Shown piece after piece: positions 8,358 through 35,122 of a stretch of DNA of 48,850 nt. The notes under the pieces are model-generated. The model did not search any database. It worked only from the letters and a program-made list of their open reading frames with translations, and had not been told where the DNA came from. Origin of the DNA: a virus; IMG/VR virus record IMGVR_UViG_3300030390_000536, positions 3,697 to 52,546 of that record, one strand, 5' to 3'. Every line of letters begins with the position of its first letter. Position 1 is the first letter of the stretch. The translations under genes were made by a program, and so were the position numbers.

Positions 8358-9040
8358 TAGTTGTTAGCTCCTGTATTTCCGGGAGGTGTGCCAGCTGGAT
8401 GATTATGTCCAGTTAGCTCCTTACCGCCTGTAACCATGCTAGGAGACACGACAGATGTGTTTGATGTGATTGTACCATCTACTGTTAGATCGCCTGTCAC
8501 GGTCACTAGAGGAGCTGTGATGGCTATTGCACCGTCCTTAGTAATGTTTATGACAGTCGTACCAGCTTTGATGTCTATGGACAGATCCTCATTAAGACTG
8601 ATCTGCTGCAAGGCATCTGCGTTCCTCCACTGGCTATGTACCGCTGAGTAGTCCTGTACGGCCCGTGGCAGCGTGTTGTATCCTACCAGTGCATATCCAT
8701 CGTCTTCTGAGAACTGACGGTACAGGTGGGGTTTAGGGAGCCCTGATAGGGTTCCTGATTCATCCTTGTCATTAAACAGCCAGTAGTCGTAACCGATCTG
8801 GCTAAAGGTAAGCTGACACGTATCGCCTTCCTTGATTGGAAAGGTCATGTGCCAGCCTCCACCGCCCGGAGTATGTACTGGTACGTCCTGTAAGTCTTCT
8901 CTTATAGTCTTGCCAGCCTCTACCTCGGTGTCACCATAGGTCTTCTCCACACAGATCTTGACCGTAGCCGTCTGAGTTTCTGGGAAGTACTCTACGATGC
9001 GGCCGGGCAGATTCACGCAATATTGGTCAGGGCTCATCAT
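8357..9040 (-). CDS. Baseplate central spike (gpV/Gp138-like)
   Basis: This 227-residue protein has an N-terminal OB-fold-like region (GRIVEYFPETQTATVKICVEK) of the Gp138/gp5 family with VPVHTPGGGGWHMTFPIKEG. A beta-helical stalk rich in short T-V-x-x-D-L repeats follows (TVTGDLTVDGTITSNTSVVS). The apex GHNHPAGTPPG carries the H-x-H that binds iron in spike tips. It punctures the outer membrane. Either of the first two Met codons could be the start (9040 or 9037). Confidence 0.88.
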   Translation of the reverse strand: MMSPDQYCVNLPGRIVEYFPETQTATVKICVEKTYGDTEVEAGKTIREDLQDVPVHTPGGGGWHMTFPIKEGDTCQLTFSQIGYDYWLFNDKDESGTLSGLPKPHLYRQFSEDDGYALVGYNTLPRAVQDYSAVHSQWRNADALQQISLNEDLSIDIKAGTTVINITKDGAIAITAPLVTVTGDLTVDGTITSNTSVVSPSMVTGGKELTGHNHPAGTPPGNTGANN

Positions 9041-10035
9041 AATATGTTACCTGATTCTGTGGCTTCGGTGTTAGGTACTACTTTAGTAATAATAGTGGCA
9101 GGGGTTGAGGTAGGCTTAGAAGCAGAACCTACTACGTCATCGGCAGTTGGTAAGTCTTGGAAGCTGTCAGGGCTTGTGCCACTTAATACGTCAGGGCTTG
9201 GAGCTACTATGAAGTCGCTTGTGCCATCAGTGTCCAGAGGCCCACCTACGTTAGAGATAGATATGTCCTCGAAGTATGAGCCATAGATAGACTCGTTCAA
9301 GTTACCTTTCTCAGTTTGCCCGCTGTCTCCTGCAACGGAGTCCAGATCTCTGTGGACCTCGTACCCGTATGCATCAGTGGTCTTATCCTGACCTTTGCTG
9401 ACGAATGTAGTGTTCTTGACCACTCCTTGTTCTGTGTGGTTCTCTACTACGAAGTCTGTGCCGAGGGGCATGGTGCACTCGTACAAGGATGACTCTAAGC
9501 TAACATCATACCCTTGTAAGTAAAGCTCGTCACGGCGAACTCTTGCTTCCTCATCTGATAGTACTGAGAAGGATAAGACAGTAGGTGCAGTCTTGTTAAG
9601 ATTACCTTTGACCTGTAGCTGCTCACCTTTGAGTACGATCATAATAGCATTGGACCAATCTTTGTCGGTCTTAGTACTATAGCTAGTAAATACAACTGGA
9701 TCGTAGTTTCCAAGGTTTGATACTACTTGGCAGACTTGTGCGTTGTCTACTAAGTCCCCAAGAGCTTTGTGCATTGTTTTGCTGATATCACCTGTCATTA
9801 CGTCAGAGTTGTTAGCGTCTTCTAATACTGTGTTGGTGAATACAGCTGTTACAGTAAACTCTCTGTTCTTCTTAATTGCATTACGAGATACTTCATATCC
9901 TGTCATCACCGGGAATTTGGTAACGACAGTCTTAGCTGCGTGTTGCTCTACCATCACAGCATGGAACCTGATCTGTTGTTCGGTCTCACTGGTTGCGTCT
10001 GTGAAGGTTATGCGGCATGCTGTTGGTTTAGCCAT
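9037..10035 (-). CDS. Baseplate protein, Dit-like
   Basis: This 332-residue protein starts at MAKPTAC (ATG 10035), overlapping the hub gene's stop codon in TAATG. A longer start at 10047 puts the purine tract directly on the ATG and is less likely. The N-terminal half (FHAVMVEQHAAKTVVTKFPV) resembles the Dit-like tail protein N-terminal family of contractile phages, where the protein surrounds the hub. The C-terminal third is Ser/Thr/Pro/Asp-rich and probably flexible. Position between hub and spike fits a baseplate hub-associated role. Confidence 0.65.
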   Translation of the reverse strand: MAKPTACRITFTDATSETEQQIRFHAVMVEQHAAKTVVTKFPVMTGYEVSRNAIKKNREFTVTAVFTNTVLEDANNSDVMTGDISKTMHKALGDLVDNAQVCQVVSNLGNYDPVVFTSYSTKTDKDWSNAIMIVLKGEQLQVKGNLNKTAPTVLSFSVLSDEEARVRRDELYLQGYDVSLESSLYECTMPLGTDFVVENHTEQGVVKNTTFVSKGQDKTTDAYGYEVHRDLDSVAGDSGQTEKGNLNESIYGSYFEDISISNVGGPLDTDGTSDFIVAPSPDVLSGTSPDSFQDLPTADDVVGSASKPTSTPATIITKVVPNTEATESGNIL

Positions 10036-11009
10036 TACACATTCCATCCTCTTATTGGTGAATCCTTACCCTTGGTAGGGCTGGATGCTGTTACAATTGT
10101 ATCCCACTGTCCAGTATAATTAGAGCCTCTATGTTGTACAGTTAACGCCTGATACTTTGTAAAGCCTGCTATGGCTTGCTTCAAGTATTCAGGAGCTAGT
10201 TGTAGAGTTACCTCATCAGCATCTGGTGCTGCTGTTACTATGTTGGATATATCCAAGATAGAAGTGGGTTTGATCTCTCCGTCCAAATTACACTCGACAA
10301 CTAACTGGCCCGGCCCGATCTTAGGAGCTGCGCCAAGGTTGTTAGAGTCTAGGACAATATCTGCTTTTGCTGTTACCAGATCCGTCTGGTCAAGGTTGTC
10401 GGCAGTAGGCTGGTACATTAGTACAATGTCTTCACCTATTGTAAAGTACTTGAAACGGTAAGGTACTTTAAGAGTCTCTAGCAACCCTTCTACAGATCCT
10501 GACCTTGGCTTTTTAAAGCGGGGAGGTACATATTCTAATGCAGCTCCCGGAAAGTTCTTGTAGACTACCTTACCTAGAAAGGGATTATCCCCAGTCTTAG
10601 TCTCTTGCACTACCTGAGTCATTATGTTCTCAAGTGAAGGATTACTTACAGTAAACTTAACCTGCTTGTTCAGAAAGTCTTTACGAATAACAGAGTAACC
10701 AAAGATATTGGTTACACTGTCAGGAACTATAGTCTGTTCAAACGCATTAGATACAAAGAAGCCATCTGCAAGTATCATAGGCGTATCATCGTGCAGGGTA
10801 CAGGTAAGCCTTACGTAGCGCTCACCATGTTGTATCTGCTTTACCATATTGTCGGTAAGGTTCCATACCTTGAAAGTACCCCGAGAGAACCCGGGGATGT
10901 TCACGATGTCGAAGTCTACCCTCAACCCATCTGAGTCAAATACTACTGTCTTCCTGTCAGGGCCAAGCACTTCCATCTTAACTGCTTGGCCAAATCTTTT
11001 AATAGTCAT
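10035..11009 (-). CDS. Baseplate hub protein (gp27/gpD-like)
   Basis: This 324-residue protein directly follows the tape measure gene. The N-terminus reads FGQAVKMEVLGPDRKTVVFD then DFDIVNIPGFSRGTFKVWNL, the beta-barrel opening seen in phage hub proteins (late-control D / gp27 type). FGYSVIRKDFLNKQVKFTV and the helix ENIMTQVVQE followed by YRFKYFTIGEDIVLMY fit the second barrel and linker. It sits at the end of the tube and anchors the spike. The ATG has the same AGGAGGCCGT leader as the J gene. No cell-wall hydrolase domain is visible in it. Confidence 0.75.
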   Translation of the reverse strand: MTIKRFGQAVKMEVLGPDRKTVVFDSDGLRVDFDIVNIPGFSRGTFKVWNLTDNMVKQIQHGERYVRLTCTLHDDTPMILADGFFVSNAFEQTIVPDSVTNIFGYSVIRKDFLNKQVKFTVSNPSLENIMTQVVQETKTGDNPFLGKVVYKNFPGAALEYVPPRFKKPRSGSVEGLLETLKVPYRFKYFTIGEDIVLMYQPTADNLDQTDLVTAKADIVLDSNNLGAAPKIGPGQLVVECNLDGEIKPTSILDISNIVTAAPDADEVTLQLAPEYLKQAIAGFTKYQALTVQHRGSNYTGQWDTIVTASSPTKGKDSPIRGWNV

Positions 11010-11017
11010 ACGGCCTC

Positions 11018-14000
11018 CTAGTCTTGGCTGTAGGTTGTGCTAGTGTCTATGTATTCCTCACCATTGTCATTCACTGTCGTGCTGACTCCTTCTGGAGATA
11101 CTTCGACATTAACGGTTACGTTGCTGTTCAGGTTTGTGCCAGCACTTGAAGCAGATTGTGAGGAAGCTACTCCTAAGTCCTTGCTTGGTACTGTTGAGTT
11201 TGCCTTTGGAGACATTGAAGACTCGTAAGCATCCATAGCAGCTACTGATGCCTGAGCTTCATCATTACCAAAGAAGGCTAAGGTGTGGGCTATGCCAGAT
11301 CCTATGGAGTCACCTACTGAGGTCCCTTCTATCAAGGTCTTGTTAAGTACTGTGCCAACTCCATAACCTACTGCACCAGCAGCCAATATAGCACCACCAG
11401 TAGCAGCGGCTGTTGAGGTCAAAGCTGTAGCAGCCATTCCAGCACCTTTAGCAGCAACACCAGTCTTAGCTGCTACATAACCAAGCCCTGCAACTGTTGC
11501 TGAACCTGCTACTCCTGCTGCTACAGCTGTCCCGCCAACTACTAAGCCAGCAGTCTCTCCACCAGATATTCCGGTAGACGTCCACTCCTTAGACTCTTGT
11601 ACTCCTTGACGTACTCTGGAAAGTCCCTTGTTAGTATCAAGACGTTCATCCTTCTTAATATTGGCAGTAGCATCTGTCATGTCTTGGCCAGTTACCCTAT
11701 CCACAGCTACAGCCATGTCAGACATTCCCAACTCTGCTAAGTAATCCCTTCGACCTTCTACGTCAAGACCTTTTGACCTATCCAAAGCCATTGAAAGTAC
11801 TTCTTGAGTACTCTTACCTTGCAAGTCATTGTAGTCCAACATAGTCATATTATTTACTGACTCGTTATTAGACTTGCTTTGGAATTTCGCCATACGAGTT
11901 TGGAACTCGGCAACACCCTCTCTGTTTGCCAACTGCTTGGAGATTACGCCAGCCTTAGATACAAGTCCTGATGTAGCTTCTTCTGCTACGCCACCCTGCT
12001 CTAGTGCGAACTTCATGCCCCTGACATTGTTCTCATCAGCGCCTGTTGCAGCAGCTAGACGGATATCACCCATCTCAGTCTTATTACCTTGGGTGTACAC
12101 TGCTGCTAGTTCTGTTATAATACCAGCTGCTTGCTTAGCAGTTCTTCCAAACTCTTTCAAGTTCTTGGAAGCTTCCTTAGTAACTTTAGCAGCTTCCTTA
12201 TCTGCATCTGACTTGCGCTCAGCATCCTCTATGGCTTTGTCAGCAGCTATGCCAGCAGCGTTCTCTGCCAAATCCATCTTACTCTGTTCACGCACTACAC
12301 GCTTACCAAACTCTTTACTGGATATTTGAGTAACTCCTGATCCGTTACCGAATGCAGGACTAGAGTTAGCTTCGGAGATAGCAGCAGATAGCGGGTTGGC
12401 ACTCATAGGTGCAGGTGCTACAGCCTTGGCCTTTTCCTCCTTAGCTTTCACAGAGTCAACGATAGCTTTGTCAGCAGCTATGGCAGCAGCGTTCTCTGCC
12501 AGCTTACTAATGTTCTCTTCACGTTGAAGGCGCTCACCAAATTCTTTCTTGGATATTTGAGTAACTCCTGAGCCGTCACCAGATACTGTTCCGTTAGCTT
12601 CTGAGATAGCACTAGACAGCAGGTTGGTTGAGGCTTTACTTAGATCCATGACAGTAGCTTTAGCAGCCTTTGCCTTTTCTTCAGTCTTCATTACGGTAGC
12701 TGGGCCAGCTTCTTTGTTAGCTTGTCTCTGCCCACTACTTGCGAGTTTCTTTTTCAAATCATCCACTCCTTCAGCGGTTAAGGTTGAGGCAAGCTCCTGT
12801 GCATTCTGTCCACGTTGGATCAGTTCTGCTTGACGTTCTGGATCGGCCCTTACTAGATCATACTTGTGCTCACCAGTACGCTTATTCATGCGATAGAAGT
12901 GGGCTGACTTAACCCCTGTCACAGCCATCTGAAGTTGCAGCTGATCTTCATAGGTCTTCATAGACTTGTTCATCGACTTTTCAGATGCCAAGTACTTGAG
13001 TTCCAGGAGAGATCGGTTGCCGTCTTCATCATACAGGTTAGCATCTGGGGAGATACCAAAGCCGGGTAAGTCTGGGTTAGTTTCAAAGAAGGCTTCTTTC
13101 ATTGTCAGGCCAAGCTTGTTGCCATAGTTAGACATGAAATCTTTACCTACCTTATCCTCGTACAAGTTACCTTCTTTTACATGGCCAGAGGATACGAACT
13201 CAGCCTCATTACCAAGTCTCTGATTAGCTAAGCCAATGGCTAAGTCTTCAGTTGACTGTCCGATAACAGATGCTGTTATATTACCCTTACGCTGTTGAAG
13301 CCATGCATCTGATCCTTGACGGATTGGCATAGGGCCTACGAAGGCTGTACCCGATAAACCATCTTGCACGAATTGGTTACGGTCTGATATTCTGTCACCA
13401 CCACCATACATGCCACCTACCTCAGATCCTGTAGAGGATGCTGGGTTCAATTGTCCAGCTGTGATTATCCACTCGGCCTGCTTAGCTAGGTTATCCTTAC
13501 GTATGGCATACTGTTCTTCATCAGATATCATTTGCTCTGGAGATGAGGTAGGACTCCACTGCCTCACATCACGGTCTGGTTGATCCGCTTTAAGGTTCTT
13601 AGGAAAGTTTGTGCCTTCCATAAATCCGGGAAGTCTTGGTATCTCAACAGCATTACCTTGTAGATTGAAACCACCACCAGCATAATGTCCAACAGGTGCA
13701 GTACCTCCAAAGGAGAATACACCACCAGCAAGTCTAGTTGATTCACTCTCACCACCTGTTAAGTATTGAGTGTCCTGATCCAGACCTTGTATGGCTGCAT
13801 CATTGTACAGCTCATTCTTAATTACTTGCTCAGGGTCTACTGCATAACCTGACCAGCGCCTGCCCTTGTTCATAGGGTCTGTCTCGTTCTGGTTAGTAGT
13901 CATCTGGGCATTGATAATATCTGAGGCTCTCTGGTAGTCTTCCTTCTCCTGATTGTAAGCTACTCTTCGGTTCTTATAAAACTCCGTACCTTCTGGTGAG

Positions 14001-15046
14001 TCATACTTGATACCTGAAGGCTTAGGGAACAGACTACCCATTACGTTAGGTGCAGCAGCTGCTAAGTACTCTTCAGAGTGACTACCAGTTAGTACAGCCT
14101 GCTGATACTCTCTCTCGGAGAATTCAGAACCTGATACGTACTGTCCAGCTACATAACCACCTACTGCGCGGTTGTCGATAAGTCCCGGTACATTTAAGTC
14201 TAATGGGGCTGGCAAGCTCTTCTTCTCATCGAACATGAAGTATGAACCTTCAGCACCCGGCTTGTTGTATCGAGTACCTTCTAACATGCGGTCAAGGATT
14301 GCAGACTGAGTAGCCTCTTTACGTATACCGTAGATTGAAGAGTCCTTGGTTTCCTGTGGGATATACTTATCAGCTAGGGTATTGGTATAGTTGATAGCCC
14401 ATTCCATTTCATCAAGCTGCTTCTGATCAGTCTCGGCATTACCACTGTGCAGGTTCAAGCGACCGCCCGGACCTACATCTAAGTTGGTTCCTATACCTTC
14501 CAAAAACTTAACAGCCTGCCTTACTTCATTACGGCCATAGTTCTGTGCCTCTTTAGAAGTCCAGCCACTTTTAGTAGTTACCTTCTGAGCCGTCAGTGAT
14601 CCGTCAATGGTAAGACCTTGTGAGAACTCGTGTGGTGAGATCTCCATGGCACTACCAGCTCGTGAGCGTACTGCATCAAGCTCAGCAATGCTGGCCACAC
14701 CGTATGTGTTCATACTACGGAACTGGTCAGAGGCTAAGTCCTTGATAGCCATGCGAGTACCCATTGAGTACCCTGTCATGTCACTGGCCTGATCACCTTG
14801 AAGACGACGAAGCTGCAAATCCGCAGCCGTCATTCCACCATAGCCCTCTTCTAGTGAGGTTGGCTCACTATCAGGATCAGAACTATAAGATCCTTGTACT
14901 TCATTACGCTGACCTTCGTAGCTAGTCAATACTCCAGTAAGTTTTGCACTAGCTGCTGCTAAGATCTCAGGAGCTAGGTTCATGCCTTGTAAATTCTCCA
15001 GCCCTCGTCTTGCTTGAGCAGCTTGGTCAGATGTGATAATATCCAT
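11018..15046 (-). CDS. Tape measure protein with embedded YqaJ-type nuclease domain
   Basis: At 1342 residues this is the longest gene, directly after the frameshifted tail chaperone, the invariant place for the tape measure. It has long helical Ala/Glu/Lys-rich stretches and a hydrophobic Gly/Ala/Val segment at about residues 1160-1240, typical of the membrane-inserting part. Residues ~576-742 are not tape-measure-like. They match the YqaJ viral recombinase/lambda exonuclease PD-(D/E)XK fold, with GSDAWLQQRKGNITAS, then Glu625 in GHVKEGNLYE, Asp668 in GISPDANLYD, Glu682 and Lys684 in LLELKYL, and YEDQLQLQMAVTG. All expected catalytic positions are present. Residues ~806-957 contain a 77-residue tandem duplication. 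The tape measure sets tail length and can be ejected into the cell; the nuclease could act there, which is inference. GAGG lies seven bases before the ATG. Confidence 0.88.
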   Translation of the reverse strand: MDIITSDQAAQARRGLENLQGMNLAPEILAAASAKLTGVLTSYEGQRNEVQGSYSSDPDSEPTSLEEGYGGMTAADLQLRRLQGDQASDMTGYSMGTRMAIKDLASDQFRSMNTYGVASIAELDAVRSRAGSAMEISPHEFSQGLTIDGSLTAQKVTTKSGWTSKEAQNYGRNEVRQAVKFLEGIGTNLDVGPGGRLNLHSGNAETDQKQLDEMEWAINYTNTLADKYIPQETKDSSIYGIRKEATQSAILDRMLEGTRYNKPGAEGSYFMFDEKKSLPAPLDLNVPGLIDNRAVGGYVAGQYVSGSEFSEREYQQAVLTGSHSEEYLAAAAPNVMGSLFPKPSGIKYDSPEGTEFYKNRRVAYNQEKEDYQRASDIINAQMTTNQNETDPMNKGRRWSGYAVDPEQVIKNELYNDAAIQGLDQDTQYLTGGESESTRLAGGVFSFGGTAPVGHYAGGGFNLQGNAVEIPRLPGFMEGTNFPKNLKADQPDRDVRQWSPTSSPEQMISDEEQYAIRKDNLAKQAEWIITAGQLNPASSTGSEVGGMYGGGDRISDRNQFVQDGLSGTAFVGPMPIRQGSDAWLQQRKGNITASVIGQSTEDLAIGLANQRLGNEAEFVSSGHVKEGNLYEDKVGKDFMSNYGNKLGLTMKEAFFETNPDLPGFGISPDANLYDEDGNRSLLELKYLASEKSMNKSMKTYEDQLQLQMAVTGVKSAHFYRMNKRTGEHKYDLVRADPERQAELIQRGQNAQELASTLTAEGVDDLKKKLASSGQRQANKEAGPATVMKTEEKAKAAKATVMDLSKASTNLLSSAISEANGTVSGDGSGVTQISKKEFGERLQREENISKLAENAAAIAADKAIVDSVKAKEEKAKAVAPAPMSANPLSAAISEANSSPAFGNGSGVTQISSKEFGKRVVREQSKMDLAENAAGIAADKAIEDAERKSDADKEAAKVTKEASKNLKEFGRTAKQAAGIITELAAVYTQGNKTEMGDIRLAAATGADENNVRGMKFALEQGGVAEEATSGLVSKAGVISKQLANREGVAEFQTRMAKFQSKSNNESVNNMTMLDYNDLQGKSTQEVLSMALDRSKGLDVEGRRDYLAELGMSDMAVAVDRVTGQDMTDATANIKKDERLDTNKGLSRVRQGVQESKEWTSTGISGGETAGLVVGGTAVAAGVAGSATVAGLGYVAAKTGVAAKGAGMAATALTSTAAATGGAILAAGAVGYGVGTVLNKTLIEGTSVGDSIGSGIAHTLAFFGNDEAQASVAAMDAYESSMSPKANSTVPSKDLGVASSQSASSAGTNLNSNVTVNVEVSPEGVSTTVNDNGEEYIDTSTTYSQD

Positions 15047-15070: not shown

Positions 15071-15675
15071 CTATTCAGGAGGCGGTGCTGGTGGGTTCAT
15101 ATGTTTTTGTAGTTCCATGATATGATGCATACGTTCTATGTCGTATAGGTTGTACGTACCGTCATCAAGCTCTCTCAAGGAACAAAGTGGTGGATCATTC
15201 AGTACTGGCTTCAGTAGATAACCGTTCAGTTCAGGGAAGATCTCAGAGTAGTCTAGTCCGACACCTCCACCTTCCTGAGCAGTATTTAGCTGGCTAGGGA
15301 GCTGTCCTCTACTGAGCCGTGTCCGAAAAACTTAGCGTAGACCGCGTGTACTACATGGGTAAAGATCTCAAGTGGTACATTGATATCCTCTGAGAACATT
15401 GCATCAAAGGTGTTAGGCAGAATACGCTTGCCATCCATGCCTACAGTACATACGAAGTGAGACATAGCATCATACAAGAGCTTGCCATCTTCGCCATCCA
15501 TAAAACTAGCACGAGCATTGGCCATGCTGTGCTCATCAAGCTTTGCTATAGCTTCAACCCGAGCTGGGCCAAACGCCTTACATACTTGTGTTAAGTTCTG
15601 ATACGCAACGGAAGCACTCCATTGAGCAATATAAATTTCTTGTCCGTCTTTAAGAACGGCGTGGTAATCTTTCAT
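15071..15675 (-). CDS. Tail assembly chaperone, -1 frameshift fusion (G-T type)
   Basis: In the -1 frame relative to the upstream chaperone ORF, an open stretch runs past its stop codon to a TAG at 15071-15073. The frame is closed upstream by a TAA at 15334-15332 and has no good start of its own. Its product ends with LRELDDGTYNLYDIERMHHI and a Pro-rich tail, the typical T-like half of myovirus and siphovirus tape measure chaperones. The shift must occur between 15331 and 15289. The best slippery site is GTTTTTC at 15331-15325, read as TTT TTC in frame 0 and re-pairing as GTT TTT. The fusion would be about 201 residues. It wraps the tape measure during tail assembly. This is a one-base programmed frameshift, not a mutation. 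Confidence 0.8.
15286..15675 (-). CDS. Tail assembly chaperone, short form (G-like)
   Basis: This 129-residue product starts at an ATG at 15675 with GGAG six bases upstream; an in-frame TTG at 15687 lies inside the ribosome-binding site and is unlikely. It begins KDYHAVLKDGQEIYIAQWS and lies between tail tube and tape measure, as expected for the G protein. It ends 17-18 codons after the suggested slip site. The unshifted form is normally made in large excess over the fusion. A rho-independent terminator sits just upstream of its start. Confidence 0.75.
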   Translation of the reverse strand: MKDYHAVLKDGQEIYIAQWSASVAYQNLTQVCKAFGPARVEAIAKLDEHSMANARASFMDGEDGKLLYDAMSHFVCTVGMDGKRILPNTFDAMFSEDINVPLEIFTHVVHAVYAKFFGHGSVEDSSLAS

Positions 15676-15699
15676 AAGTTTCTCCAAATAGTTTAACGT

Positions 15700-15738: not shown

Positions 15739-16224
15739 TTAAAGGTTATCTAGGTCAGCACCACTATTACGGTCGTATTCGACTTTCTCGAATGACAGAA
15801 CCCATGTAACTGTGTTCATAGTCTGGCCACGAACCATACCGGGCATAGCTAGGATCACACCATTGGTACATGCTGCTTGGTCCTTACCCATGTTATCTCG
15901 GAAGGCAACTTGGATAGGCTGAATCAACTCACCGCCAGCTTCTGCTTGTGCCTGAAACCAATTGGCCCAGTCTTGCAGGTACTTATTCTCGGGAGCATTC
16001 ATAAGAACTGGGAAGGCTACATCACCACCTTTGATACGTAGCATGGAAATAACCATGTCACCGTAGGCACCGAACATGGTAGTGGCAATAGGAGAACGGC
16101 GTTGGATATTAATCAGGCCTTCACCAGCAGCATAGCCACGAATCTTAAATGTAGCTGGGTTGGTGTTGCCGGGATAGTCTGCTGTGACGATTAGGTCAGT
16201 ATTTGCAAAGCTGTACTGATACAT
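15739..16224 (-). CDS. Tail tube protein (DUF3277-like)
   Basis: This 161-residue protein comes directly after the sheath gene. The opening YQYSFANTDLIVTADYPGNT, the central GLINIQRRSPIATTMFGAYG and the final WVLSFEKVEYDRNSG match the DUF3277 family of tail tube proteins in phages with a DUF3383 sheath. It stacks as hexamers to form the inner tube. It has a good AGGA leader and is followed by a strong terminator, consistent with high expression. Confidence 0.85.
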   Translation of the reverse strand: MYQYSFANTDLIVTADYPGNTNPATFKIRGYAAGEGLINIQRRSPIATTMFGAYGDMVISMLRIKGGDVAFPVLMNAPENKYLQDWANWFQAQAEAGGELIQPIQVAFRDNMGKDQAACTNGVILAMPGMVRGQTMNTVTWVLSFEKVEYDRNSGADLDNL

Positions 16225-16264: not shown

Positions 16265-17782
16265 TTACTCTGCGAAGTTACCAGAGATCTCGACTGCATG
16301 TAGTGCACCAGCACCAACCATATCGAAAGAGATACCCATGTATACGCGATTAGCCTTGTCTGAGCTAGGAGTGTCCTCAAGAGATACGGCATTGATACGG
16401 TATCCCTTAGCTAGGAAGTCTCCATTTGGCAAGTATCCCGGAGCACTTAACCCATTACGTACAGCAGCTTGAAGGGAGCGATCCAGAACTCCTACAACAG
16501 TATTGATACCTTCCTGAGTGTAAGGGACTTTAGTAGTACTCTGGTACAGCAAGTTAAAGATATCAACTTCACAGCGATTCTCCAACCACAGTAGACCATG
16601 AGTAGCATCTAACCATGAGCCAGAAGCCATACGAGAATCTACGAAACCGTTACGGGCATTGATACCTGTACCGATCTGGACAATGGCTGAACCGAAACGA
16701 GCACGTAAGTTAGCAAGCTCATTAGGTGTAAGGTTCTCGGCAGCGATACCGGGCATCTGCTTCAGGTTCAAAGTGATGGTGCTATCAACAGCTGAGAAGT
16801 TTACGGAAGCAGCACGACCGAATACTGAGGCTGATGGATATGCATTAACATCTTTACTGAAAGTAGACAAGCTGAACCGTAAGGTACGAGTCTTCAACAG
16901 ATGGATGATATCAGTAGGACTAGCATCAACGTAGGACGAGATGCATGAGAGGTCGTTAGAAGTGTTGCAGAAGATACGTTTAGCAGCTTCAGCATAGATA
17001 GCGATCTCTTCAGTAGTGTTACCGTCAACACCGATTGGGAATACGTCACGCCACTTCTTATCAGTAACAAGACCTACGGCCTCAATACCTTTATCATCAG
17101 CAACTAGTAAAGCAGCTACAGGAGATTCTGCATCAATACCTAGAGACAGCTGAGATTGGTGTACTTGTAGGCCGAGTAACTCAGCAGCAGCACCAGTAGC
17201 GTAACCTAATACGCCAGTACCTGCACCAGTAGCTACACCTTCGATAACGAATTGGTAGCCATTGTGAGTAACGCTAATGCCTGTAAGTCCACTAGCGATA
17301 AGCTGATCTTCAACTTCAGCAGCAATCGCATCGTAGGTAGCAGGGGCGGCTACAGAAGTAAGGTCGAGGTCTGTAACACTGATCACACCTAAGGCATCCA
17401 TCTCAATAGAGAATGCAGCACTGTCACCAGTACCTAAGATAGCAGCTTTCAATTCATCAGCAGTGCCAGTCCCGCCACCAGTTAAGGTTGCAGCCTGAGC
17501 AGTCTCATAACACATCTGGACAACGAAGTCTGTAGGTGTAGGAGTCTGGCCATAGAACGCAGCAGCAGCTTTGTAAACCTCAGAAGAGGCAGACCAGTCA
17601 GCAGCAACGCCTGTAAGATCTGTGTAAGAGCGATAACGCTCAGCTGGTAAGATGTCCTTGCCCATGTTGGCAGCATCAGCATCAGATGCTAGGAATCCTA
17701 GTATGCCAAAGTTACCACCTTGTACGCCAGTAGCGGCGACAGAGATAGATACGTTAGCGAATTCTGTAATATCAATAGCCAT
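16265..17782 (-). CDS. Contractile tail sheath protein (DUF3383)
   Basis: This 505-residue protein shows the DUF3383 sheath pattern. An N-terminal strand (VSISVAATGVQGGNFGILGFL) is followed by a Tyr-rich SYTDLTGVAADWSASSEVYK segment and an Ala/Gly-rich inserted domain. The C-terminal handshake region has NARNGFVDSRMASGSWLDAT, WLENRCEVDIFNLLY and QEGINTVVGVLDRSLQAAVR. The length is usual for the family. It polymerises around the tube and contracts on infection. It makes the assignment of a myovirus tail secure. Confidence 0.9.
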   Translation of the reverse strand: MAIDITEFANVSISVAATGVQGGNFGILGFLASDADAANMGKDILPAERYRSYTDLTGVAADWSASSEVYKAAAAFYGQTPTPTDFVVQMCYETAQAATLTGGGTGTADELKAAILGTGDSAAFSIEMDALGVISVTDLDLTSVAAPATYDAIAAEVEDQLIASGLTGISVTHNGYQFVIEGVATGAGTGVLGYATGAAAELLGLQVHQSQLSLGIDAESPVAALLVADDKGIEAVGLVTDKKWRDVFPIGVDGNTTEEIAIYAEAAKRIFCNTSNDLSCISSYVDASPTDIIHLLKTRTLRFSLSTFSKDVNAYPSASVFGRAASVNFSAVDSTITLNLKQMPGIAAENLTPNELANLRARFGSAIVQIGTGINARNGFVDSRMASGSWLDATHGLLWLENRCEVDIFNLLYQSTTKVPYTQEGINTVVGVLDRSLQAAVRNGLSAPGYLPNGDFLAKGYRINAVSLEDTPSSDKANRVYMGISFDMVGAGALHAVEISGNFAE

Positions 17783-29979: not shown

Positions 29980-31809
29980 TTATAAAAAGAACCTTTTCAA
30001 ATCGCGTACAATCTCAGGATTCCACTCACCTAAAACTGGTGGGCGATCTATCTCGACATCATAACGAAGTGTCCAGTACTCGTGCAGTTGTGCCAGATAA
30101 TCCATATCGTATAGATCCGCAAAGGTATTCACGATCGCTGAGTAAAGCTCGTCACGGTAATTACAGTGAGTTGCAAAGCTATCGTGGATAAATATCATCG
30201 GTAGTCCCAACTCCTTCAAGACTCGTGCCACCATTCTTAGGTGTGTCGCATCAAGACTGTGGATTATGTTAGGGGCTATCGCTGATTTGTGCTTGGCCGT
30301 ATTAGGTATCGGTGGAGTGTAGTCAACAATCTCAAGGGCGAACTCTTCACCATTGGACAGAGTTACCTCAAGCCTTCTACGCTTTCCCTTAACCTTACGC
30401 TGCATGCATTCAAACTTATCAGGAGTGATCCAATGTATTTCAGTATTATCAGCACTGGAAATTATTCCAGCGGCCATCGTCACCCACTCTACAGCAGCCG
30501 TCAGAGGCCCAAGCATATCATTGATGCAATCGTATAGCTCACATCCCAATTTGCCCGTCACGGCTCTCTCAAGCCCATCTCCGACTGTCACATAGCATTC
30601 CTGATCGACATCCCATTCCTGTTTAGCCCCGAACATTTTGCCGAGGTGCTCCATAGATGTCATACGGGTTGCATTATATCCCCATGTCATAACAGGAACC
30701 TTAGCAGCCTTTCGAGTTGCTAGGTACATCAGGGTACGAGGTAGTGTTTTCATCCAAGCATCTGCTATGTATTCGTAGATGTCTAGTTCGTGTTCTTCCT
30801 GTTGCATCCCGAGGTGGGCTGTGATCGCAGTCGAACGAACCACAGCGCTCCAATGCTGTAACCCAGAACAACGACCATCCAAGGGTATGAATGCGGGAAT
30901 AGGTTGATCAGGATTATCGAGGTACTGGCGTATAATGTTAGCACAAGCAAGATAACTATAGGGCTTGTCGGCTTCAAGCCATTCCAGATTAGTTTCCCAA
31001 TTACGTGCATGGTATGCCATTGTAGCGGCTGTCCAAGGTTTCTCTGAGTATCCAGCTGCCGATTCACATAGCGCTGCAAAGCCCTTCTCCGTGAGCGTTT
31101 CGCTATATGACGGTTGTGTGAGTGCCTTTTCATGGTCTGCTCCTTGTGGGGACATACCGCAAGTGGTATCTGAATACATCCTACTCCTTGAATCTAAGAA
31201 GTAAGGGTAGCAGTGTTCCGTTCCTAGTAAGTCTTCGGCAGTCTTCATCGTTCTCTTGAACATGAGATCTGAGCCTTCCGTAGGAGGAACTACTTGCAGT
31301 ACGTTAAAGATAAATTGATTGACTGTGAACTTCTCACGAGCCATTGTGTTTGATATATTACTTACTTCCTTATTGCGATCATTAGATACGCCTCCCCGGA
31401 TAGGGCTTACCGGGATCTTCTCACCAACTAACTTGGGATAGGTCACGGCAGTAACTGGACCTTCAAGGCCAGCTATGTTCAGGTCTAGCAACTTCTTAGT
31501 AGGCTCTACTACTCGTTCATCGAATCCTCTGGTCAGTTTAATGTACCCAGCTAACTCCATCTCTCCCATAAATCGTAAGGATACGTTCAGTGGGTCTGTA
31601 GCTTCTAACATGCGCTTTGACATACGAGGCACAGCAGAGTGTAAGGGTATCCCAAACAGTCCGTGTAGAGAGAATAGGCAGTGCTCATAACAGCGCTGCC
31701 ACATTCCCGGTTTCATAGTCTGCCACTTATTAGAGCTGACATCATCAGGTCTCTTAAAGCCTTTACCTTTACCGTCTGGCAATATAACGCCGCCTGATAG
31801 TTCGATCAT
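29980..31809 (-). CDS. Single-subunit T7-like RNA polymerase (RNAP 1)
   Basis: This is a 609-residue RNA polymerase with canonical motifs. Motif A is IPLDGRCSGLQHWSA with Asp311. Motif B is RKAAKVPVMTWGYNAT with Arg366, Lys370 and Tyr378. Motif C is FIHDSFATH with Asp543. It is shorter than T7 RNAP, with motif A ~225 residues earlier, and the same compact layout as RNAP 2 (Asp309/311, Lys362/370, Asp555/543). The C-terminal part, including TNIIHSLDATH-like NIIHSLDATHLRMV, matches the classical T7 enzyme better than RNAP 2 does. It closes the replication gene block and lies directly before the structural genes, which fits a late-gene polymerase. AGGAGG precedes the ATG. Confidence 0.93.
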   Translation of the reverse strand: MIELSGGVILPDGKGKGFKRPDDVSSNKWQTMKPGMWQRCYEHCLFSLHGLFGIPLHSAVPRMSKRMLEATDPLNVSLRFMGEMELAGYIKLTRGFDERVVEPTKKLLDLNIAGLEGPVTAVTYPKLVGEKIPVSPIRGGVSNDRNKEVSNISNTMAREKFTVNQFIFNVLQVVPPTEGSDLMFKRTMKTAEDLLGTEHCYPYFLDSRSRMYSDTTCGMSPQGADHEKALTQPSYSETLTEKGFAALCESAAGYSEKPWTAATMAYHARNWETNLEWLEADKPYSYLACANIIRQYLDNPDQPIPAFIPLDGRCSGLQHWSAVVRSTAITAHLGMQQEEHELDIYEYIADAWMKTLPRTLMYLATRKAAKVPVMTWGYNATRMTSMEHLGKMFGAKQEWDVDQECYVTVGDGLERAVTGKLGCELYDCINDMLGPLTAAVEWVTMAAGIISSADNTEIHWITPDKFECMQRKVKGKRRRLEVTLSNGEEFALEIVDYTPPIPNTAKHKSAIAPNIIHSLDATHLRMVARVLKELGLPMIFIHDSFATHCNYRDELYSAIVNTFADLYDMDYLAQLHEYWTLRYDVEIDRPPVLGEWNPEIVRDLKRFFL

Positions 31810-33103: not shown

Positions 33104-33871
33104 CTATACTCCGTAATCAGCAATCAACCGTTCTAGGCTTACGAACTCAACATCATGGTCAAGGTACTCATAGCGATTGGTAAAGGATTTCATATGCACG
33201 AAGCCACGAATCTCAGTGTTGTTAGCACCTCGGTAGTCTTCATCATGCATATAGAAAGAGCCTGCACATACACCGAAGTGTGGCTTGCCTAGAAGGTTCT
33301 GACGGCGAGCATACTGGAACTGCTGCTGATGGCCGTGTACGAGGCTGTGCGGGAACTTGTTAAGTTTGTTCTCCATACTGCCACCGACCGGGCGACCTGA
33401 CATAGCATTTTCCATGTAGTGATTGAAACATACATCATCAATCCATAGAGGACTGGTGAAGTCATGTACCTGCCAACCTTGATCAGCTACGAACTTAGGA
33501 AGATCGAAACAGCCTTCTAGTACCGGGTGAGAATCAATGAATCGCTTGAGGCGGTTCTCATGATTACCCATACAGAAATGTAACTCAGGCTTATAAGGCA
33601 CCCGTTTAGCAGCCTTGTTACGGTCGTTAGTGTACTGCATGATGATCTTGAAAGCATCAAAGCCAGCTTCTAAGTCTGCATAAAGGCGTTTACCTTCCTG
33701 TTCCTTAGCACTAGCATAGGTTGAGAGGCTTGGAAGATCCCAATGATCGCCAATATGCACAATGTACTTAGGCTTGTGGGCCCAGATGTATCGTGCCAAT
33801 GCTTTCAAGTGGTCAACTGGAGCACCTTCTTGGATTTGCGTATCAGCGATTACTAAAATATCATTACTCAT
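33104..33871 (-). CDS. Calcineurin-like metallophosphoesterase
   Basis: This 255-residue protein follows the binuclear metallophosphoesterase order: D10 in VIADTQIQ, where the usual D-x-H has Gln in place of His, then IVHIGDHWDLPS, HFCMGNHENRL and LVHGHQQQFQYA. These give the metal-binding Asp, Asn and His residues. The N-x-H substitution at the first motif is seen in some phage members. Substrate is unknown; related phage proteins act on nucleic acids or small phosphates. It overlaps the endonuclease VII gene by four bases. Confidence 0.85.
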   Translation of the reverse strand: MSNDILVIADTQIQEGAPVDHLKALARYIWAHKPKYIVHIGDHWDLPSLSTYASAKEQEGKRLYADLEAGFDAFKIIMQYTNDRNKAAKRVPYKPELHFCMGNHENRLKRFIDSHPVLEGCFDLPKFVADQGWQVHDFTSPLWIDDVCFNHYMENAMSGRPVGGSMENKLNKFPHSLVHGHQQQFQYARRQNLLGKPHFGVCAGSFYMHDEDYRGANNTEIRGFVHMKSFTNRYEYLDHDVEFVSLERLIADYGV

Positions 33872-34251
33872 TTAGTCTTTCTCCTTCGTTTTACGGGACG
33901 CTTAACTGGTTTCTGCTTACCTTTAACGAGGTCATACGTTGGATGTATGATGTTACTTGGAGTCTCTCGATGACTCTCGATGTAGGAAGCAATGTTTCTC
34001 AGGTACTGTACAACATCTGTTCTCGATAGGTGGCCAAGTTTAGCCATATAAGCCGCAGCTTTCAGGACTTTACCTTCCGAACGATTACAGGTGCCACATA
34101 ATGCGGCTCGACAGTGACCAGTTTTGTGGTCGTGATCTAATGTTATGGTCTGGCCAGCTAACGGGCCATTACATAACGGGCATATATATTTCTGCTTAGC
34201 AGCAAACATGTTACGGTACTTAGCAATCTCAGTCGTTTTGATCTGGTGCAT
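33868..34251 (-). CDS. Recombination endonuclease VII
   Basis: This 127-residue protein has the His-Me endonuclease zinc core of endonuclease VII. Cys24 and Cys27 are in YICPLCNGPL, Asp39-His40 in TLDHDHKTGHCRAALCGTCN, and Cys52 and Cys55 close the zinc site. The C-terminus is very basic (KPVKRPVKRRRKTK). It resolves branched DNA before packaging, so it belongs with the replication and packaging genes. The ATG is inside the exonuclease gene's end. Confidence 0.9.
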   Translation of the reverse strand: MHQIKTTEIAKYRNMFAAKQKYICPLCNGPLAGQTITLDHDHKTGHCRAALCGTCNRSEGKVLKAAAYMAKLGHLSRTDVVQYLRNIASYIESHRETPSNIIHPTYDLVKGKQKPVKRPVKRRRKTK

Positions 34252-35122
34252 CGGTTATCTTCCCAGTTTTGATGTTCAAATACTGATCTCGATTATCGAA
34301 CGTCCACATTTTTACTTGATCGCCCACGTACTCGCGTGACATGTATAGTAGATTGGCCTGAGTCTCCATCATGGATTTCCAGTCATCACCAAACTCTGCA
34401 TAGTAAGCTCGGGCTACTTGCTTTAAAGCTTCAGGAGGACTACGCCCTTCCAATAGCTTAAGAGCTGCCATGGGGCCTACTCCTTCTCGTGCAAGCCTTG
34501 GCTCACCTTTCTTCTTACCAGATTTCCACTCACCCCAGACACGTTTGCCACAGCCTACGATCCAGTCAGTGCTATCACCTGTAAGTAGTTGTAAGTAGAA
34601 TCCGATCAGCCCGTTGAAGTAAACCTTCTTACCACGCTTCTCGATAAGTCCTACATCATCAACTGTCACGACCTCCATAGATTCATCATCAAGGTGAGCA
34701 CCCGGAACCTGTCTCAGATCTTTATCTAAGCTCCAGATTACAGTGTCCTCAGTCTGATGAATACCTAACAGATCATCGGCTTCTAAGTAAGGTACAGCTT
34801 CTGCCCCGTATTCTGATACAGCCAAACGCTTAGCCCATGCCAGATGGATTGGACGTTCCTTATCAGATCGGTTAGCTTTGTAATCATCTACTAAGTGATC
34901 TCGGAAGTTCTTCTTAGTAGTAACAAAGAATCGGTAGTCATCGCAACCAGCAGCACTCGTCAGCTCTGATATCTTACGCTCAATAGCCAACTTAATACTT
35001 CGCCGGGCAAGTGGGCCATATTCATTGTAGGTACAGCAAGGTCGATATACTACGATGTCTCCATCAATTAGTAAGGTCTTGCCAGATTTGAAACAGTCTA
35101 AATCATCGTACTCTTCGCTCAT
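34229..35122 (-). CDS. 5'-3' exonuclease (FEN/T7 gp6-like)
   Basis: This 297-residue protein shows the FEN-family metal site: LLIDGDIVVYRP with the first Asp, DYKANRSDKE, VPYLEADDLLGI, WSLDKDLRQVPG and the helix-hairpin-helix region LLTGDSTDWIVG followed by GVGPMAALKLLEG. It would degrade DNA ends or primers during replication and host DNA breakdown. GGAGG lies four bases before the ATG. Confidence 0.9.
   Translation of the reverse strand: MSEEYDDLDCFKSGKTLLIDGDIVVYRPCCTYNEYGPLARRSIKLAIERKISELTSAAGCDDYRFFVTTKKNFRDHLVDDYKANRSDKERPIHLAWAKRLAVSEYGAEAVPYLEADDLLGIHQTEDTVIWSLDKDLRQVPGAHLDDESMEVVTVDDVGLIEKRGKKVYFNGLIGFYLQLLTGDSTDWIVGCGKRVWGEWKSGKKKGEPRLAREGVGPMAALKLLEGRSPPEALKQVARAYYAEFGDDWKSMMETQANLLYMSREYVGDQVKMWTFDNRDQYLNIKTGKITDAPDQND

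Follow-up and report, generated by a model that had tools for sequence, protein, structure and literature searches.

Tape measure proteins (TMPs) of phage tails are known for cell-wall enzymes, not for DNA enzymes of the recombination type. The present locus raises the question of whether a phage can build such a nuclease into its tail ruler and, if so, what the nuclease would do there. The window, a stretch of 48,850 nucleotides from the IMG/VR virus record IMGVR_UViG_3300030390_000536, holds a gene for a 1342-residue protein in which an earlier reading of the sequence, called the original prediction below, had recognized a domain of the YqaJ/lambda-exonuclease type. Here, we examine this domain by means of profile searches, structure prediction and comparison with relatives, and we weigh the different functions that it might have. 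The features of the locus are collected in Table 1.

The tail genes lie on the minus strand in the order terminator, sheath, tube, tail assembly chaperone, the 1342-residue protein, hub, Dit-like protein, spike and wedge genes. The 1342-residue protein is encoded by the longest of the tail genes, which adjoins the chaperone gene on one side and the hub and Dit genes on the other. The chaperone gene has an extension in the -1 frame that stops shortly before the TMP gene begins. The sequence of this extension is kept in all six relatives checked. This matches the frameshifted chaperone pair expected before TMPs, and a programmed frameshift is probable here, while no obvious slippery heptamer was found near the end of the chaperone gene. 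On the basis of the gene position, the conserved chaperone frameshift frame and the helical parts, the protein is the TMP of a contractile-tailed phage related to the Chaseviridae. The homologous gene of the chasevirus 4HA13 is annotated as tail tape measure protein, and its product is present in virions.

The AlphaFold model of residues 151-1342 (overall pLDDT 55) is too weak for reading the overall architecture; it gives 70% helix for residues 751-1190, much of it at low confidence, and 42% for residues 151-570. A second folded region of alpha/beta type is seen in this model at moderate confidence (residues ~204-381, approximately positions 13904-14437; pLDDT about 62-92 by blocks), and no identity was obtained for it. 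The Gly/Ala-rich hydrophobic stretch is shared with three of the relatives (L002, L005 and L006) and absent from most cultured chaseviruses, the TMPs of which mostly lack a strongly hydrophobic segment.

Table 1. Features of the tail locus, with positions in the window.
Feature	Position	Strand	Basis
Dit-like tail protein	9037..10047	-	PF21821, 64 bits
Baseplate hub protein	10035..11009	-	phrog_196
TMP with embedded nuclease	11018..15046	-	Single ORF, 1342 aa
Gly/Ala-rich hydrophobic stretch, TMP residues 1165-1234	11345..11554	-	Kyte-Doolittle maxima 1.3-1.7
TMP part after the nuclease, mainly helical, residues 751-1190	11477..12796	-	AlphaFold model of residues 151-1342
YqaJ/lambda-exonuclease domain, residues ~575-750	12797..13324	-	PF09588, phrog_434, AlphaFold, Foldseek
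Glu682-Leu-Lys684 codons, ExK motif	12995..13003	-	Glu682 and Lys684 invariant
Asp668 codon, SPD motif	13043..13045	-	Invariant
Glu630 codon, glutamate of GxxxE (G626-x-x-x-E630)	13157..13159	-	Invariant
Tail assembly chaperone, 15286-15687, with -1-frame extension to ~15071	15071..15687	-	PF21822, 30.1 bits
Tail tube protein, probable (KPP10_Orf10 family)	15739..16224	-	PF11681, 35.6 bits; phrog_280
Tail sheath protein	16265..17782	-	DUF3383, 192.6 bits; phrog_205; 39% identity to VPs20

In its general make-up, the 52.5-kb record agrees with the Chaseviridae, which are defined by a myovirus-type gene order with a single-subunit RNA polymerase, a DNA polymerase and a helicase/primase, and by a genome of 52-56 kb (PMC12842549). 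By way of the sheath protein, the nearest cultured relatives are found in this family at no more than 39% identity (chasevirus VPs20), and IMG/VR contigs with a related sheath reach 53-82%. With 39% as the best sheath identity to a member, the virus probably represents a sister or a new group relative to the Chaseviridae.

Some other genes of the window can be mentioned here. Two genes, at 434-2425 and 29980-31809 and both on the minus strand, encode relatives of the single-subunit RNA polymerases of T7/N4 type; one product has 609 residues (phrog_414, 244 bits) and the other, more divergent, has 663 (phrog_414, 90 bits; PF00940, 18.4 bits, below cut-off). Chaseviruses have been described with one such polymerase (PMC12842549). 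At 33868-35122, also on the minus strand, an endonuclease VII-like gene overlaps a 5'-3' exonuclease gene. A weak match to STING_LBD in another gene of the window was taken as noise.

Turning to the nuclease domain, the YqaJ profile PF09588 matches residues 582-712 with 31.9 bits (E 1.9e-7; Pfam cut-off 22) and scores 36.8 bits in the six-frame search, and the PHROG 434 profile 'RecE-like exonuclease' (phrog_434) matches residues 574-840 with 55.6 bits. These matches confirm that a YqaJ-type nuclease lies inside the single open reading frame of the TMP. The AlphaFold model of residues 560-791, built on an alignment of 58 sequences, has a pLDDT of 91.5 and a pTM of 0.84, and its top PDB matches in Foldseek are LHK-Exo (E 6e-11) and lambda exonuclease (E 3e-10), with TM scores by target length of 0.73 and 0.61, respectively. 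The proposed PD-(D/E)XK fold is thus borne out by structure prediction.

The original prediction had named Glu625, Asp668, Glu682 and Lys684 as the catalytic residues. The last three are invariant in all 27 TMP-embedded domains, while Glu625 turned out to vary among the relatives, and the correct residue is instead Glu630, which is unchanged both in the 27 embedded domains and in an alignment of 58 YqaJ sequences from TMPs and standalone enzymes. Together with Gln702 and Gln704, the residues Glu630, Asp668, Glu682 and Lys684 are invariant across the embedded domains and the wider YqaJ alignment. The motif series as a whole is intact as claimed: of 12 positions checked in the 27 domains, 11 are invariant (Trp582, Arg586, Thr591, Gly626, Glu630, Asp668, Glu682, Lys684, Gln702, Gln704 and Met707), and one is either Ser or Thr. 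The domain in the middle of the TMP is hence predicted to be a catalytically competent YqaJ PD-(D/E)XK nuclease.

It could be argued that the domain has a structural or DNA-binding use without catalysis, for example in gripping the first-entering DNA end or in serving as a plug. Inactive PD-(D/E)XK proteins are known to exist, and in known phages the TMP and the DNA are close together at ejection. Such a use, however, would not require the metal and catalytic residues to be invariant in 27 of 27 divergent TMPs, and we consider it very unlikely.

We next consider how widespread the arrangement is. Searches with single-sequence patterns of the whole protein or of the domain found no close relatives in IMG/VR, the same patterns found no relative in bacterial genomes, and megablast against phages found no close relative of either the whole protein or the domain. 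The relatives were reached through the sheath protein and then by domain alignments. A mid-protein YqaJ domain is present in 16 of the 16 TMP-position proteins of relatives, i.e. in 13 cultured chaseviruses from both subfamilies and in three IMG/VR contigs, recognized in some of the cultured phages by alignment or six-frame search and not above the Pfam cut-off; it is also present in further IMG/VR contigs that share the gene order. With coliphage and Shewanella phage queries, the domain was found in phages of E. coli, Shigella, Erwinia, Pantoea, Proteus, Pectobacterium, Aeromonas, Shewanella and Vibrio. All the Chaseviridae TMPs examined, and those of the uncultured relatives, thus share the YqaJ domain.

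The 125 matches in IMG/VR are of two kinds, namely standalone open reading frames of 204-356 residues and domains within long ones. The latter have at least 1043 residues, except where the end of a contig truncates them, and hundreds of residues flank the domain on both sides. Within the reach of their contigs, these uncultured relatives retain the neighbouring genes for sheath, tube, chaperone, hub and Dit-like protein. Outside the Chaseviridae-type phages, the YqaJ matches are standalone genes where checked; the second IMG/VR scan covered the best 80 of 400 matches, and other fusions could exist. In the coliphage, Erwinia and Proteus chaseviruses (L010, L013, L014, L016 and L020), the TMP combines the nuclease, recognized in L014 by alignment and six-frame search, with an SLT transglycosylase at the C-terminal end. 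The TMP of the window clade is without this transglycosylase.

An artefact of assembly, or a functionless insertion that happened by accident in recent times, has practically no probability left as the source of the fusion, and nothing was found in its favour. The same arrangement recurs both in IMG/VR contigs of independent origin and in cultured phages with complete genomes, which excludes the fusion of two genes during assembly that had been raised as a possible objection, and the purifying selection described below speaks against an accident.

The nuclease is also better preserved than its surroundings. When the profile of the window clade is compared with that of either cultured subfamily, the nuclease is still detected (97-99% probability) and the flanks are undetectable, and between distant relatives the identity is 34-51% in the nuclease versus 18-27% in the flanks. 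Within groups the nuclease is usually the most conserved part of the TMP, the flanks being about equal to it in two comparisons of the coliphage group. Wherever dN/dS could be estimated for all three parts, the domain has a lower value than both flanks (e.g. 0.115 versus 0.22 and 0.35), with several pairs saturated at synonymous sites. At the level of sequence, these ratios show that the nuclease domain is under purifying selection. As to the origin of the fusion, which may have arisen once or more often, the domain tree does not separate the branching of the three groups of TMP domains; with long branches, the AU test allows a single TMP clade (p 0.499) but does not demonstrate it. An intact lambda-exonuclease that is kept throughout a family, and better conserved than the ruler around it, would imply an important and hitherto undescribed step in DNA entry.

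Another scenario considered was that the freshly made TMP serves late in infection as a recombination exonuclease, working on DNA that is being replicated or packaged, before its incorporation into tails. YqaJ enzymes normally serve recombination, and the cytoplasm is where the TMP is synthesized at this late stage. The six-frame search of the 52.5-kb record found the TMP-embedded domain as the sole YqaJ, and the same holds for seven of the seven other chasevirus-type records searched. No RecT or ERF recombinase could be detected in the 52.5-kb record, which is possibly incomplete, and no ERF in the five relatives searched; the claim that the phage has no separate YqaJ or recombinase therefore stands within this scope. 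These last results speak against a late role, since no single-strand annealing partner of these types was found; such a partner nearby is the usual setting of a YqaJ enzyme, albeit no strict part of the family's definition. Furthermore, a TMP is complexed with chaperones and is already shut inside the tube, apart from the DNA, by the time a head is attached. A separate gene would also be simpler, yet the fusion is kept in every chasevirus checked. We judge this scenario to be quite unlikely.

We now return to the nuclease as a part of the tail. In LC-MS/MS of 4HA13 virions, the tail tape measure protein ranks second among the most abundant signals (PMC9699118). The nuclease domain falls within the 4HA13 tape measure gene and has 83% identity to the domain of chasevirus flopper, a carrier that grows on E. 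coli K-12 MG1655. Presence of the TMP polypeptide in virions has thus been published for one phage, 4HA13. In our reading, the nuclease segment would be part of the mature virion too; that some TMPs undergo cleavage counts against this.

The tail length of the same phage provides a further piece of information. At 116.5 nm (PMC9699118), it needs ca 780 helical residues at 0.15 nm each, and the protein has 1204. Subtraction of the nuclease and the C-terminal SLT transglycosylase part leaves ca 820 residues, corresponding to 123 nm. This arithmetic from a single phage, 4HA13, suggests that the enzyme parts of the TMP are not counted in the ruler length.

As for delivery, the complete TMP of a diffocin is a trimer that fills the tube with its C-terminus at the spike (PMC11329794), the T5 TMP leaves the tube upon receptor contact (PMC10038345), and in lambda the TMP picks up label from a protein of the inner membrane in the course of injection (PMC13190303). 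It is probable that the present virus likewise delivers the nuclease into the cell along with its genome. Our main proposal is that the tail holds an active exonuclease that is ejected ahead of the genome and acts on DNA ends at the entry site. Its delivery, activity and substrate are all deduced, and we give it about an even chance of being correct. The scarcity of strongly hydrophobic segments in the TMPs of cultured chaseviruses counts against it as regards passage through the membrane.

According to this proposal, the TMP would lie inside the tail tube, where its nuclease would be kept inactive in a squeezed or unfolded state. Storage would have to involve unfolding, because a folded domain of such size should not fit the lumen of the tube, and this counts as a point against the proposal. 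The TMP would be ejected tip-first and before the DNA. In the coliphage chaseviruses, with the transglycosylase at the tip end and the nuclease deeper, wall cutting would come first and the nuclease next, so that the two can be likened to an enzyme set deployed in order at entry. The nuclease would then fold on arrival in or at the cell and, where the genome enters, act on double-stranded DNA that has free ends.

It is important to note that enzymes of the lambda-exonuclease family digest from DNA ends, and that an intact circular chromosome offers no start for them. By this requirement, linear DNA, of which the phage genome coming in is one example, is at least as good a candidate as an intact circular host chromosome. 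The likeliest substrate would be the incoming linear genome, with linear competitor or broken host DNA second. Resection of the 5' ends of the phage genome would expose direct terminal repeats for annealing or circularization, and the resected ends would be poor substrates for RecBCD. Direct terminal repeats of about 3 kb are present in cultured chaseviruses (PMC12842549), and those of 4HA13 have 3120 bp (PMC9699118). The end-processing reading is weakened by the lack of a detectable RecT/ERF annealing protein and by the phage's own 5'-3' exonuclease and endonuclease VII, which could process the ends instead. We have also considered that the TMP bundle, trimeric in other tails, joins three YqaJ domains into a lambda-exonuclease ring after ejection, which would resect the genome ends, expose the terminal repeats and block RecBCD. 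If this doubtful variant were true, the tail ruler would double as a pre-packed DNA-end processing machine.

A nuclease delivered at entry might alternatively be used for attack, degrading broken host DNA, plasmids or the DNA of competing phages. The evidence for delivery is the same as for the main proposal. The need for a DNA end prevents a nuclease of this type from beginning on an intact circular chromosome, however, and the copies of TMP per virion are few. In infection by the Carltongylesvirus phage Tiny, nucleoid condensation and a falling DAPI signal were observed, which the authors read as degradation of the host genome (PMC13340011), but these changes come late, at 40-60 min, and there are other phage nucleases. 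A precedent is given by the contractile injection system of Streptomyces davawensis, in which a tape-measure-related effector with an EndA-like nuclease targets DNA (PMC11126660). Taken together, we regard attack as unlikely, albeit credible. We prefer the main proposal, in which the nuclease works on DNA ends where the genome enters.

The annotation of the gene differs widely between sources. PHROG 149 labels the Nefertitivirinae-type protein 'exonuclease' over its full length, and RefSeq uses the same name for some, while the PHROG 19855 label for the Chaseviridae TMP-position proteins is 'virion structural protein'. The record of ZPAH14 carries 'yqaJ', and other records have tail fiber, hypothetical or tape measure. 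The present results correct this annotation, in which one gene goes under several of these names. A separate error in the public records is the 'recombinase' of VPs20 (L007:1345-3240), which by profile is a ribonucleotide reductase.

In the open-access literature, no paper treats YqaJ together with Chaseviridae, and a search for tape measure and nuclease gave only the injection-system effector Tme, which has a different nuclease fold. The original prediction had called the arrangement unusual. This calls for revision, since the arrangement is present in every Chaseviridae TMP examined and the protein family was already labelled exonuclease. In the open-access literature, no paper discussing YqaJ in a TMP was found. 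Enzyme-bearing TMPs and lambda exonucleases are both known; their combination and its family-wide conservation appear to be undescribed.

Finally, the domain can be compared with known systems. It has the fold, the motif series and the active-site residues in common with lambda exonuclease, LHK-Exo and YqaJ (PF09588), but the known PF09588 members are standalone enzymes in recombination modules, whereas here the nuclease is an internal domain of a virion protein of ~1150-1340 residues. The TMP-position proteins of the Chaseviridae (phiEcoM-GJ1 gp62, ST32 ORF66 'tail fiber' and 4HA13) agree with the window TMP in gene position, size and mid-protein YqaJ; beyond the nuclease their sequence is not recognizably like it, and the coliphage members add the C-terminal SLT domain. 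The TMPs of mycobacteriophage TM4, T5 (pb2) and phiIPLA35 likewise have a built-in enzyme used at entry, but their hydrolases target peptidoglycan, while the window nuclease should target DNA. Tme of the S. davawensis system (PMC11126660) is also a tape-measure-related protein with a nuclease in a contractile injection machine; it has a C-terminal EndA-like (DRGH) endonuclease and belongs to a bacterial injection system, in contrast to the mid-protein PD-(D/E)XK domain of an infectious phage. SNIPE (PMC13190303), similarly, is a nuclease acting where the TMP brings DNA across the inner membrane, but it is a GIY-YIG nuclease encoded by the cell for host defence, whereas the window nuclease would be brought by the phage.
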